Positions 37,042 to 41,058 of a DNA stretch of 64,000 bases are shown piece by piece. The first letter of the stretch is position 1. Each line of letters begins with the position of its first letter. A program made the position numbers and the translations under genes. Location of the stretch: NCBI RefSeq assembly GCF_900103985.1, contig NZ_FNIE01000003.1:496001-560000 (forward strand). The letters run 5' to 3'. The notes under the pieces were generated by a model. It was not told where the DNA came from, searched no databases, and was given only the letters and a program-made list of their open reading frames with translations. The stretch comes from Actinacidiphila guanduensis. Lineage in GTDB: Bacteria > Actinomycetota > Actinomycetes > Streptomycetales > Streptomycetaceae.

Positions 37042-37384
37042 ATTCGCCTCCAGCGCTCGGGGGCCGGGCCACTTCCATTCGACGCCCCCGCCCGCCACCC
37101 CGCCACTCGAACACGAAGCGCTCCCCGCGGGCAGGAGGGGTGCACGCTGGTGCGGTGGCGGCGAGTACGGCGTTTCCTGCGAGCGCCGCGGTTGTGAAGG
37201 GGGCGGCTGGGATCGCGGTGTCCGTCGAGCCCTGCCGGGAGCGCTCACGCGCTGGTGGTGGTGGTGGGCGGCGCGGCGGGGTGGGGGGCCCGTCGCGCCG
37301 CTGTTCACCGTGGGGGGATCACTGTGGGGGGATGACCGGGGTTGGTGGGTGGTGCGGTGGGTGCTGTGGGTGCCGTGGGGGGGG
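37042..37384. other. 343-bp gap between aldolase and esterase genes
   Basis: Bases 37042-37259 hold the upstream region of the aldolase operon; no regulator or transporter gene is present. Bases 37260-37384 are the non-coding outer part of the inverted repeat, G-rich on the plus strand, with the repeated word GTGGGGGGAT, and lie just downstream of the esterase stop. Confidence 0.55.
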
Positions 37385-37899
37385 TCAGTTTGTGGTGCAG
37401 GTGAGGGTGGGGGGTGGGGTGGGGGTGCCGCCGTTGACGACGTAACCGAAGGTGGTGGAGGCGTTGGGGGCGAGCTGGCCGTTGTAGGGGGCGTTGGTGG
37501 CGGTGGTCTGGCTGCCCGAGGTGCCCTGGACGGCGTTCCACAGTGAGGCAATCGTGGAGCCCGACGGTTGGGTCCAGGCGACCTTCCAGCCCGAGATGGT
37601 GCTGCTGCTGGTGTTGGTGACCGTGACCTGTGCCTGGTAGCCGCCCGTCCAGGCGTTCACCGACGCGAACACCGCCGAGCACCCCGACCCACCGGAACCA
37701 CCCGTCGAACCCGACGTCGTACCCGAGGTCGTGCCGGACGTGGTGCCGCTCGTCGTACCCGACGACGCCCCACTCGACGTACCGGACGTCGTGCCCGAAC
37801 TCGTACCCGCCGACGTACCCGAACTCGTGCCGCTCGACGTACCGGACGACGTACCGGACGAAGTCCCGCTCGACGTACCCCCGTTCGTCGCCCCCGTGC
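37260..37899. repeat. Left arm of a 640-bp inverted repeat (CBM2, linker and 3' flank)
   Basis: This segment is the near-exact reverse complement of 40416-41058. It covers 125 bp beyond the esterase stop, the whole CBM2 module and the Gly-Thr-Ser linker of the esterase. The CBM2 protein sequences are identical; the few base differences I could find are synonymous. The left arm has an extra TGGGTGCCG just outside the stop. Confidence 0.92.
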
Positions 37900-38839
37900 C
37901 GTCCAGGCCGAAGAACGCGATCGCCTTCGCCGCCATGCCGCTTGTCGGCAGCACATGGCCCGCGCCCTGGACGCTGATCCCCTCGACCGGCGGCTGCGTG
38001 CCCGCGTCACCGTAGCGGGTGCGGGTCCAGGTGGACTGGGGGTGATCGGTGAGGACCGGCGTCTGACTCACACCGAGCACGTTCGTCCACTGCTTGATCT
38101 CCTCCCCGAAGTTCGGGTAGGCGAGCGTGGTGTCCGCGGTGCCGTGCCACAGCTGCATGCGCGGCCGCGGGCCGCTGTAGCCAGGGTCGGCCGCCCGTAC
38201 CAGGTCGCCCCATTGCTGCGGGGTCTTGATCGACTGGCCGCTGGAGCACGTGCTGTTCCAGGACGACCCGTCGGTCGTGGCGAAGCAGCCGAACGGCACC
38301 CCCATGAAGGCGGCGCCGGCCTTGAAGACGTCCGGGTAGTCGCCGAGCAGGACGTTGGTCATCATCGCGCCCGAGGACGCGCCGGTGACGTAGACGCGTG
38401 AGGCGTCGCCCCCGTAGTGCTGCTCGGTGTACGTGACCATCGACATGATGCCGACCGGGTCGCTGCCGCCGCCGCGCTTGAGCGCCTGCGGCGAGGAGAC
38501 GTCGAAGCAGCTGCCGCTGCGGGTGGCCGACGGGTAGACGACGATGAAGCCGAACTGGTCGGCGAGTGAGGCGAATTCGGTGCCCGAGTAGAAGCCGGGG
38601 CCCGAGCCGGTGCACTGGTGGACGGCGACCAGGATCGCCGGATGGGCCGGGGCGCTGTTCGGCACGTAGACGTACATGCGCAGGTTGCTGGGGTTGTCAC
38701 CGAAGCCGGTGACCTCGGTGAGCGAGGCCGCGCTGGCCCTGGTGGCCGAGGTCGCGGCGAGCAGGAGCGCCGCGATCAGCGGCACGACACCCATGAGCAG
38801 GGCGACGAGCAGCCGTCTGCTGCTCCTCTTCCGGGGCAT
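37385..38839 (-). CDS. Secreted CE1-type esterase (PHB depolymerase-like) with C-terminal CBM2
   Basis: A 484-residue secreted enzyme. A signal peptide (RRLLVALLMGVVPLIAALLL, cleavage near RASA-A, residue 38) precedes an alpha/beta-hydrolase domain of the esterase PHB depolymerase family, where acetylxylan and feruloyl esterases also fall. The nucleophile is Ser155 in VTGASSGAM; the Asp is probably in LWHGTADTT and the His in GAGHVLP. A linker of GTSS/GTTS repeats leads to a carbohydrate-binding module family 2 ([20 protein letters not shown]). The ATG at 38839 gives the signal peptide; AAGGA lies 12 nt upstream. With the divergent xylanase it probably removes acetyl or feruloyl groups from xylan. 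Confidence 0.92.
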   Translation of the reverse strand: MPRKRSSRRLLVALLMGVVPLIAALLLAATSATRASAASLTEVTGFGDNPSNLRMYVYVPNSAPAHPAILVAVHQCTGSGPGFYSGTEFASLADQFGFIVVYPSATRSGSCFDVSSPQALKRGGGSDPVGIMSMVTYTEQHYGGDASRVYVTGASSGAMMTNVLLGDYPDVFKAGAAFMGVPFGCFATTDGSSWNSTCSSGQSIKTPQQWGDLVRAADPGYSGPRPRMQLWHGTADTTLAYPNFGEEIKQWTNVLGVSQTPVLTDHPQSTWTRTRYGDAGTQPPVEGISVQGAGHVLPTSGMAAKAIAFFGLDGTGATNGGTSSGTSSGTSSGTSSGTSSGTSAGTSSGTTSGTSSGASSGTTSGTTSGTTSGTTSGSTGGSGGSGCSAVFASVNAWTGGYQAQVTVTNTSSSTISGWKVAWTQPSGSTIASLWNAVQGTSGSQTTATNAPYNGQLAPNASTTFGYVVNGGTPTPPPTLTCTTN

Positions 38840-39359
38840 GGCGGATGGTGTCCTTTCCGGGACCCGCCGTCCGCCGACGGGCCTCTCCTTCCCGGCGGCG
38901 GACGGCGTGTTGTGGGGGGATGGTCGGCCTTGCGGCCGCGGCGAAAAGTTTCGACACCTCTGCGAATGTTTCGGGAAACGGTAGGGGCGCCGCGGGCGCG
39001 CGTCAAGGCGTGTGACGACGGTGTGAAGCGAGCCGTCACTCAAAGTCCTGCTGCTGCGCCCGAAGTTGGGCGTCGCCCGTGCGCTTCTCCCCAATATCGG
39101 CCGGGCAATGGACGGTTCAGCCGGTGCGACCCGAACTACTGCTGGCGGGTCGTAAGTTTCCCGGCGATTTCGGAAACGCACCGTTGACGTTCGGCCCGGT
39201 GCGGAGCCAGACTCGTCAGCGATCGACACCCGACCACGCCGTGCAGCGGCCTCCTCCCGTGGTCGGCCGCACCCTCGCGAATGGTTTCCCCCCACTCGCC
39301 CACCCGGTGTCGCCCTCACCAGCAACGCCGGACCGGGCCAACCGGAAGACGAGGTCGTA
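38840..39359. other. 520-bp divergent promoter region, esterase/xylanase
   Basis: Non-coding and distinctly less GC-rich than the genes. It carries the GAAA/TTTC palindromes listed separately. A TTGACG at 39184-39189 could be the -35 box of the xylanase promoter; the best -10 candidate (CAGACT, 18 bp on) is weak. Confidence 0.6.
38942..39177. promoter_or_regulatory. Three GAAA/TTTC palindromes between esterase and xylanase
   Basis: CGAAA-AG-TTTCG at 38942-38953, GTTTC-GG-GAAAC at 38968-38979, and GTTTCC-N10-GGAAAC at 39156-39177, the last containing TTTC-G-GAAA. The first two lie about 105-140 bp upstream of the esterase start, the third about 185 bp upstream of the xylanase start. GAAA/TTTC inverted repeats have been described upstream of Streptomyces xylanase genes (recalled, not checked). 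Confidence 0.65.
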
Positions 39360-40943
39360 GTGATCCCTGCATCCCCCCACCCCCTGGAGCCGGGCGCAAG
39401 ACGCGTACGCCGCAAGGGCGTTCGGCTGGCACTCGGCGCGGTCACGGCCGGCGCGGTGGCCGCCGCCGGCCTGCTGACGACGGCCGGCACCGCGCACGCC
39501 GCCAGTACCCTGGGCGCCTCCGCGGCCGCCTCGGGCCGCTACTTCGGCACCGCGGTGGCCGCGAGCCACCTGGGCGAGGCGCAGTACGCGTCCACGCTGG
39601 ACACCGAGTTCAACGCGGTGACCCCCGAGAACGAGATGAAGTGGGACGCCACCGAGAGCACCCAGGGCGTCTTCACCTACTCCGCAGCCGACCAGATCGT
39701 CGCCCACGCGCAGGCCCAGAACATGAAGATCCGTGGGCACACGCTGGTCTGGTACTCCCAACTGCCCGGCTGGGTCAGCGGGTTGTCGGCCAGCGCGCTG
39801 CAGAGCGCGATGGACAACCACATCACGTCGCTGATGACCCACTACAAGGGCAAGATCTACGCGTGGGACGTGGTCAACGAGGCGTTCCAGGACGGCGGGA
39901 GCGGCGCCCGGCGCAGCTCGCCCTTCCAGGACAAGCTCGGCGACGGCTACATCGAGCACGCGTTCCGCACCGCGCGGGCCGCCGACCCCAACGCCAAGCT
40001 CTGCTACAACGACTACAACATCGACGGCATCAACGCGAAGAGCACGGCCGTCTACAACATGGTCAAGGACTTCAAGGCGCGCGGCGTGCCGATCGACTGC
40101 GTCGGCTTCCAGGGGCACTTCAACAGCGCCTCGCCGATGACGTCCGACTACCAGGCCAACCTCCAGCGGTTCGCCGACCTCGGCGTCGACGTCCAGATCA
40201 CCGAACTCGACGTGGCCGGCTCCGGCACCGCCCAGGCCGACAGCTACACCAAGGTCGTCCAGGCGTGCATGGCGATCCAGCGCTGCACGGGCATCACGGT
40301 GTGGGGCATCACCGACAAGTACTCGTGGCGCAGCAGCGACACGCCCCTGCTGTTCGACGGCAACTACAGCAAGAAGCCGTCGTACACGGCGGTGCTGAAC
40401 GCGTTGAACGGTACGGGTACGGGGGCGACGAACGGGGGGACGTCGAGCGGGACTTCGTCCGGTACGTCGTCCGGTACGTCGAGCGGCACGAGTTCGGGTA
40501 CGTCGGCGGGTACGAGTTCGGGCACGACGTCCGGGACTTCGTCCGGTACGTCGTCGGGTACGACGAGCGGCACCACGTCCGGCACGACCTCGGGTACGAC
40601 GAGCGGCACGACCTCGGGTACGACGGGTGGTTCCGGTGGGTCGGGGTGCTCGGCGGTGTTCGCGTCGGTGAACGCCTGGACGGGCGGCTACCAGGCACAG
40701 GTCACGGTCACCAACACCAGCAGCAGCACCATCTCGGGCTGGAAGGTCGCCTGGACCCAACCCTCCGGCTCCACGATCGCGTCACTGTGGAACGCCGTCC
40801 AGGGAACCTCCGGCAGCCAGACCACCGCCACCAACGCCCCCTACAACGGCCAGCTCGCCCCCAACGCCTCCACCACCTTCGGCTACGTCGTCAACGGCGG
40901 CACCCCCACCCCACCCCCCACCCTCACCTGCACCACAAACTGA
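39360..40943 (+). CDS. Secreted GH10 endo-beta-1,4-xylanase with C-terminal CBM2
   Basis: A 527-residue secreted enzyme that cleaves xylan chains. An arginine-rich N-terminus and hydrophobic segment form the signal (cleavage after THAHA-type GTAHA). The GH10 TIM barrel follows, with [14 protein letters not shown], the acid/base Glu174 in WDVVNEAF and the nucleophile Glu282 in ITELDV. A linker of about 60 residues of GTSS/GTTS repeats leads to a CBM2 ending in two-cysteine form (GCSAVF to LTCTTN). The start is a GTG at 39360 with GAGG 5 nt upstream. It is divergent from the esterase and shares its CBM2 exactly. Confidence 0.96.
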
Positions 40944-41058
40944 CCCCCCCACAGCACCCACCGCACCACCCACCAACCCCGGTCATCCCCCCACAGTGAT
41001 CCCCCCACGGTGAACAGCGGCGCGACGGGCCCCCCACCCCGCCGCGCCGCCCACCACC
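40416..41058. repeat. Right arm of the 640-bp inverted repeat
   Basis: Reverse complement of 37260-37899. It covers the xylanase linker and CBM2, the stop codon and 115 bp beyond. The non-coding flank is as well conserved as the coding part, including the direct repeat ATCCCCCCACAGTG/ATCCCCCCACGGTG at 40985-41012. Confidence 0.92.

Follow-up and report, generated by a model that had tools for sequence, protein, structure and literature searches.

Concerted evolution of a linker and CBM2 shared by divergent xylanase and esterase genes in Actinacidiphila

Why should two genes with unrelated catalytic domains end in almost the same DNA? The question is raised by a locus of Actinacidiphila guanduensis that lies in a window of 64,000 nucleotides (assembly GCF_900103985.1, contig NZ_FNIE01000003.1, positions 496,001 to 560,000). 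Here a predicted GH10 xylanase gene and a putative CE1-like esterase gene appear to diverge from a common control region, and both terminate in one and the same cassette, a repetitive linker followed by a binding module of family CBM2. We show that this cassette evolves in concert in eight of eight genomes that carry the gene pair, and we consider recurrent gene conversion to be the probable cause.

The inverted repeat and its counterparts in relatives

A first-pass annotation of the window had described the ends of the two genes as near-perfect reverse complements of about 640 bp that cover linker, CBM2, stop codon and more than 100 bp of non-coding flank. Both statements are borne out by alignment. 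Read in the coding direction, the arms align over 632 columns at 97.3% identity, with 17 substitutions and two indels, one of 12 bp (one linker unit) and one of 10 bp directly after the stop codon, and the repeat extends 126 bp past the esterase stop (Table 1). By section, substitutions number 1 in the 17 columns that precede the linker, 9 in the 202 linker columns, 7 in the 297 columns of the CBM2 with its stop codon, and none in the 116 columns of the flank. Over the 98 codons of the CBM2 there are seven synonymous and no non-synonymous differences, and the proteins are identical; from the count of sites alone, seven silent differences out of seven have a probability of 8e-5. One unit of four residues and two single positions (A/T, S/T) distinguish the linkers at the protein level, and thus the annotation's further claim that all differences are silent is true of the CBM2 alone. 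The likeness of the arms is beyond chance, because the second-best match of an arm in the rest of its own genome (a draft of 8.22 Mb in 33 contigs) is only 68% identical and because, in an all-against-all comparison confined to that genome, the repeat pair stands apart among the 78 pairs formed by 13 CBM2 domains, with 100% protein identity against 59.3% for the next pair and a median of 40.4%.

The same arrangement recurs in the genus. In a DNA search of 35 genomes (the window's own included, one genome per species, up to eight first-look candidates scored per genome and matches listed at E <= 1e-100), adjacent GH10 and esterase catalytic regions were found in at least eight: the window's own genome (G000) and G005, G006, G011, G015, G020, G022 and G031. 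A family-level search of 394 genomes scored one or two candidates per genome, so that pairs elsewhere may be missed. The window's genus also takes in Streptomyces sp. DvalAA-14 (L082), since 65 out of 65 60-mers sampled from a stretch of G017 (L102) occur in that strain. All eight pairs in the genus are transcribed outward, and in each of the seven relatives the gene ends are again inverted copies of one another, with 460-540 aligned columns at 88.8-97.9% identity. CBM2 matches in twelve relatives numbered 215, 203 of them in the seven pair genomes (18+28+31+35+26+22+43), from which selected ones were compared.

Within a genome, the two CBM2 copies share 91.3-100% of their DNA sequence, against 64.4-86.3% between genomes (esterase copies). 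Synonymous differences (pS) between the two copies are 0 in G005, G006 and G020, 0.013 in G022 and G031, 0.081 in G011, 0.092 in G000 and 0.206 in G015; between genomes, pS is 0.26-0.65 for the CBM2 and 0.12-0.38 for the catalytic domains. Compared with the window, the CBM2 proteins of the relatives are 52-73% identical and their catalytic domains 70-90%. In the CBM2 DNA tree the two copies are sisters in 8/8 genomes, with moderate support for two pairs (82/98 and 78/70) and two further pairs represented by identical rows, and therefore linker and CBM2 evolve in concert. A clade of all xylanase CBM2s is rejected (p-AU 2.7e-62), the concerted pattern holds in all 28 two-genome comparisons, and the pair copies again group within genomes in protein trees that include 40 other CBM2 rows. 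Three of the pairs (G006, G020 and G031) sit in single-contig assemblies. A genome-wide comparison in G031 and G006 places the partner arm (90% and 96%) far ahead of any other hit, followed by linker-only or partial matches at 75-83%. The first-pass annotation had suggested duplication or gene conversion and had set beforehand the test of whether each copy tracks its orthologue; with each copy nearer to its partner than to its own orthologue, homogenisation is favoured.

The borders of the shared tail are uneven. In all pair genomes the inner border lies at or shortly after the start of the linker, and the outer border lies 6 bp past the stop codon in G005, 0 in G031, 2 in G022, 2 in G015, 0 in G011, 16 in G006 and 56-73 in G020, compared with 126 bp in the window. 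The conserved non-coding flank emphasised by the annotation is thus real in the window and is not a general feature, as the other seven genomes retain only 0 to about 73 bp. By eye, the sequence beyond the border contains a GC-rich, hairpin-like element (GGCGCGGCAG...CTGCCGCGCC) on the xylanase side in G006, G020, G031, G015 and G011, and on the esterase side a GTGACCACCACAGC stretch resembling the start of the next gene in G020, G031, G015 and G011. Conversion tracts that overrun the stop codon may be selected against in those relatives, and this limit may be absent in the window because its locus has different neighbours. A terminator scan of positions 37100-41300 returned one site, against 1.4 expected by chance.

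Control pairs and a joint change of CBM2 type

Similar gene pairs elsewhere lack the homogenised tail. Seven divergent Streptomyces loci among 80 loci examined (L011, L021, L026, L032, L036, L042 and L049) showed no shared tail: six had no match at E <= 1e-3 and L026 had one stray match of 28 bp, with the test of L049 partial (215 bp of esterase tail only) and the esterase frame of L021 broken. Three pairs of the genus put through the same comparison gave 472-549 columns. In trees that include four of the Streptomyces loci, their xylanase CBM2s form one clade and their esterase CBM2s another; in the tandem pairs L079, L086, L087 and G057 the two CBM2s fall in different clades. Three tails from Actinoplanes/Paractinoplanes overlap the downstream gene and are judged by tree, not by alignment values. 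In G007, where the xylanase and esterase genes are 6.6 Mb apart, their CBM2s are unrelated. A second opposed pair of CBM2 genes (L201-L205), 0.47-0.65 kb apart, occurs in G000, G011, G022, G029 and G031 and is unhomogenised in five of five, with identities of 43-52% within a genome and of 71-94% and 60-85% between orthologues. Opposed position alone is therefore insufficient, and similarity at the outset is probably needed for homogenisation. This second pair lies in the other contig orientation in G011 and G022.

In G015 both copies seem to have changed their CBM2 type. The CBM2s of the G015 pair (L127) group with two further CBM2s of that genome, apart from those of the other seven pairs, and support for the group of three is 99/93 in one tree and 99/89 in another. 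One of the two (L188) belongs to an esterase paralogue; the other (L191) belongs to a protein that by eye is CE15-esterase-like and is encoded on the same contig at a distance of 45 kb, and both carry linkers of the GTST-repeat kind, as in the pair. The genome thus holds four related CBM2s on three catalytic domains at 80-91% DNA identity. The two that make up the homogenised pair are 91.3% identical to each other and 80-88% identical to those of L188 and L191. Since the pair groups with CBM2s of its own genome, both genes changed to a new CBM2 type, a joint replacement seen in one case and with modest margins. Tentatively, linker and CBM2 could act as a swap cassette, as the CBM2 type and GTST-repeat linkers shared with L188 and L191 would suggest: homology in the linker would admit a foreign CBM2, conversion would install it in the partner as a joint switch of specificity, and the inverted order would permit this in the long term. 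Further secreted enzymes encoded in these genomes also have linkers built of 12-bp repeats. In G006, five overlapping matches to such a linker (76-81%) at G006:C1:5834133-5834616 suggest a long GTST-repeat stretch in one gene.

Recurrent conversion and the alternatives

We put the probability that recurrent homologous gene conversion between the arms keeps the two linker-CBM2 cassettes alike at about 85%. One arm would be copied by the other, probably in a RecA-dependent manner, across the roughly 2.5 kb that separates the arms in the window. The copied unit would begin where the repetitive linker begins and end near the stop codon, or 126 bp beyond it in the window. The module would then evolve as a single sequence present in both genes, with each catalytic domain following a course of its own, and a change in one copy, or the replacement of its CBM2, could pass to the partner. 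On theoretical grounds, the inverted order would allow near-identical tails to coexist for long, because recombination between direct repeats would delete a gene and recombination between inverted repeats cannot.

Several observations weigh against this reading. Neither a conversion tract nor a donor or recombinant was observed directly, and the direction of donation is obscured by related CBM2s that occur alike on lone esterases (G030, G007) and on lone xylanases (G017, G021; long branches). In G015 the pair copies share 91.3% identity, barely more than the 87% that they share with a third CBM2 of the genome. In G011 and G015 the two CBM2 proteins have drifted to 95.9% and 90.6% identity, so that conversion would be episodic. 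Clustering of the 17 differences in the window was tried as a sign of conversion patches and rejected: the three longest identical runs gave p = 0.0016 with all 17 counted, and the signal vanished (p ~0.52) once the altered linker unit was treated as one event. In the part of PMC8262849 cited here, distance is reported to have had no effect on recombination in Salmonella, and inverted repeats to have recombined at a rate 2.2-fold below that of direct ones, which speaks against inversion or closeness itself promoting exchange.

The drift in G011 and G015 would also suit an account in which each lineage copied the module once onto the neighbouring gene, an independent segmental replacement with no later exchange, and the window taken by itself fits one such event followed by a few silent changes. 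We regard this as unlikely: it needs separate events in 8/8 genomes, all at the same two genes and all bounded on the inner side by the start of the linker, and repeated copying of that kind amounts to gene conversion in the broad sense. Selection on the protein for the same CBM2 could, by itself, explain why all seven CBM2 differences in the window are silent, but is excluded for practical purposes because synonymous sites are homogenised too (pS 0-0.01 in 5/8 genomes); the non-coding flank of the window is likewise identical in 116/116 aligned columns. A collapsed or misplaced repeat might be suspected in a draft of 33 contigs whose arms may exceed the read length. The probability of such an assembly artefact is negligible, however, given arms that differ at 17 sites and by two indels and the same pattern in three single-contig genomes.

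Gene conversion is also to be set against an idea of the first-pass annotation, that the repeat is a switch by which the 2.5-kb centre flips between orientations. Inverted arms of about 640 bp do exist, and homologous recombination between them could invert the centre. In a comparison of flank synteny in 20-kb stretches, however, G006, G011, G015, G020 and G031 share their esterase-side flanks in 10/10 comparisons and their xylanase-side flanks in 10/10, never crossed, and G005 and G022 share fewer flank genes, on the same sides. The sole crossed match, between the xylanase side of G005 and the esterase side of G030, consists of two weak hits at 50-55% identity; G030 retains the esterase and its flank with no adjoining xylanase. 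No fixed inversion of the centre was therefore seen among the genomes that share flanks, a set of five with which the window does not share its own. A flip would, moreover, exchange the outer flanks only, because each gene would retain an equivalent tail. An invertible switch is thus very improbable, and this part of the annotation found no support. Some 16.7-19.5 kb into the xylanase-side flank of G011 (L166), genes are reversed relative to G006, G020 and G031, which marks a local rearrangement at a distance from the repeat.

The two enzymes, their regulation and known systems

The xylanase matches the GH10 profile PF00331 at 409 bits (curated cut-off 22.1), and both proteins match PF00553 (CBM_2) at 73 bits (cut-off 24). 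The esterase is more ambiguous. It matches PF10503, which marks it as an esterase of the PHB-depolymerase type, and NF050058, the family of extracellular short-chain-length polyhydroxyalkanoate (scl-PHA) depolymerases, at 280.8 bits (cut-off 150), and automatic family names for 37385-38839 point to a short-chain PHA depolymerase. The structure relatives point to a xylan esterase: nearest to its catalytic domain are the acetylxylan esterase 5x6s (E 3.4e-77) and the feruloyl esterase 8iy8 (E 1.4e-71), enzymes of a kind that we take to be classed in CE1. Because these structures are nearest, and because the partner gene and the CBM2 also favour it, the gene would be better named a CE1-like xylan esterase than a polyhydroxybutyrate (PHB) or PHA depolymerase, as judged from sequence.

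Table 1. Features of the xylanase-esterase locus, in positions of the window.
Feature	Positions	Strand	Basis
CE1-like (acetylxylan/feruloyl) esterase gene, C-terminal CBM2, start codon inferred	37385..38839	-	PF10503, PF00553, NF050058, structure relatives
GH10 endo-xylanase gene, C-terminal CBM2, GTG start inferred	39360..40943	+	PF00331 E 1.5e-122, PF00553
Esterase-side arm (linker, CBM2, stop, 126 bp flank)	37259..37900	-	Pairwise alignment and inverted-repeat search
Xylanase-side arm of the inverted repeat	40416..41059	+	Pairwise alignment and inverted-repeat search
Unique centre, 2515 bp: both catalytic domains and shared divergent promoter region	37901..40415	.	Alignment
Non-coding flank 3' of esterase stop, common to xylanase side	37259..37384	-	Alignment
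Non-coding flank 3' of xylanase stop, free of substitutions over the 116 columns aligned	40944..41059	+	Alignment
CBM2 of esterase	37388..37681	-	PF00553 profile
CBM2 of xylanase, protein sequence equal to esterase CBM2	40647..40940	+	PF00553 profile
Esterase linker, 12-bp repeats (GTSS-type units)	37682..37894	-	Repeat analysis
Xylanase linker, 12-bp repeats, longer by one 12-bp unit	40422..40646	+	Repeat analysis
CGAAA-N2-TTTCG palindrome, BxlR-operator-like, CGAAAAGTTTCG	38942..38953	.	Pattern match
Second TTTC-N-GAAA palindrome, TTTCGGGAAA	38969-38978	.	Pattern match
TTTC-N-GAAA palindrome TTTCGGAAA, xylanase side	39168..39176	.	Pattern match

The region between the two genes contains putative operator palindromes. 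A CGAAA-N1-2-TTTCG site is present in 8/8 pair centres, as is a TTTC-N1-3-GAAA site, each with ~0.00 expected in shuffled sequence. According to the part of PMC4743123 cited here, the xylobiose-responsive repressor BxlR binds CGAAACTTTCG, a motif often present in promoters of xylan genes; the palindrome of the window has one extra central base relative to it, and G006 matches exactly. With BxlR-like motifs in the shared divergent region, the xylanase and esterase genes look like one xylan-responsive unit. The shared module could plausibly be of benefit, given that the two enzymes attack one polymer and are probably induced together: two co-regulated enzymes, one working on the xylan backbone and one on its side groups, would be held by the same binding module to the same surface.

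To the left of the repeat, positions 33592-37077 encode a class II aldolase (PF01116 match) and, by eye, dihydroxyacetone kinase-like subunits and a HAD-type hydrolase, a neighbourhood that is absent beside the other pairs. A plasmid search returned only homologues of the GH10 enzyme and of a regulator, covering at most 20% of the query.

By the title of a paper by Kellett et al. in 1990, xylanase B and an arabinofuranosidase of Pseudomonas fluorescens subsp. cellulosa reportedly have cellulose-binding domains that are identical and that neighbouring genes encode. Our pair resembles that case as its title presents it; here the pattern is followed through eight genomes, and the gene order is inverted. 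Prokaryotes are known for long-lasting concerted evolution of entire paralogous genes, among them tuf, amo and mtrA, according to the part of PMC6053082 cited here, a study of full-length cases that defers partial ones to future work. As in those genes, copies within a genome are nearer to each other than to their orthologues, at synonymous sites also and repeatedly across species; unlike those genes, which are homogenised over their full length, the two studied here have unrelated catalytic domains and share only a terminal module. Inverted arms of high identity that are probably maintained by conversion also recall the palindromes of mammalian sex chromosomes, large inverted repeats in which, as the cited part of PMC8981503 describes, gene conversion preserves the likeness of the arms. 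In contrast to those, our arms are short (0.5-0.65 kb), belong to another domain of life and each end a different gene. Searches of open-licence literature for concerted evolution at the level of modules, or for gene conversion in carbohydrate-binding modules, yielded no account of a single binding module that evolves in concert, throughout a genus, in two genes that are otherwise unrelated. Thus, gene conversion and whole-gene concerted evolution are known, and what we did not find described is their confinement to one binding module of unrelated enzymes.

For studies of such enzymes the locus carries a warning, that trees of carbohydrate-binding modules need not follow the enzymes that carry them. 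It also offers a clear example from nature in which one part, common to two unrelated enzymes, evolves as a single unit and the remainder does not. With it comes a testable system for two questions: how modular enzymes retain or switch a common binding module, and how the borders of bacterial gene conversion are set by gene order and by repetitive linkers.

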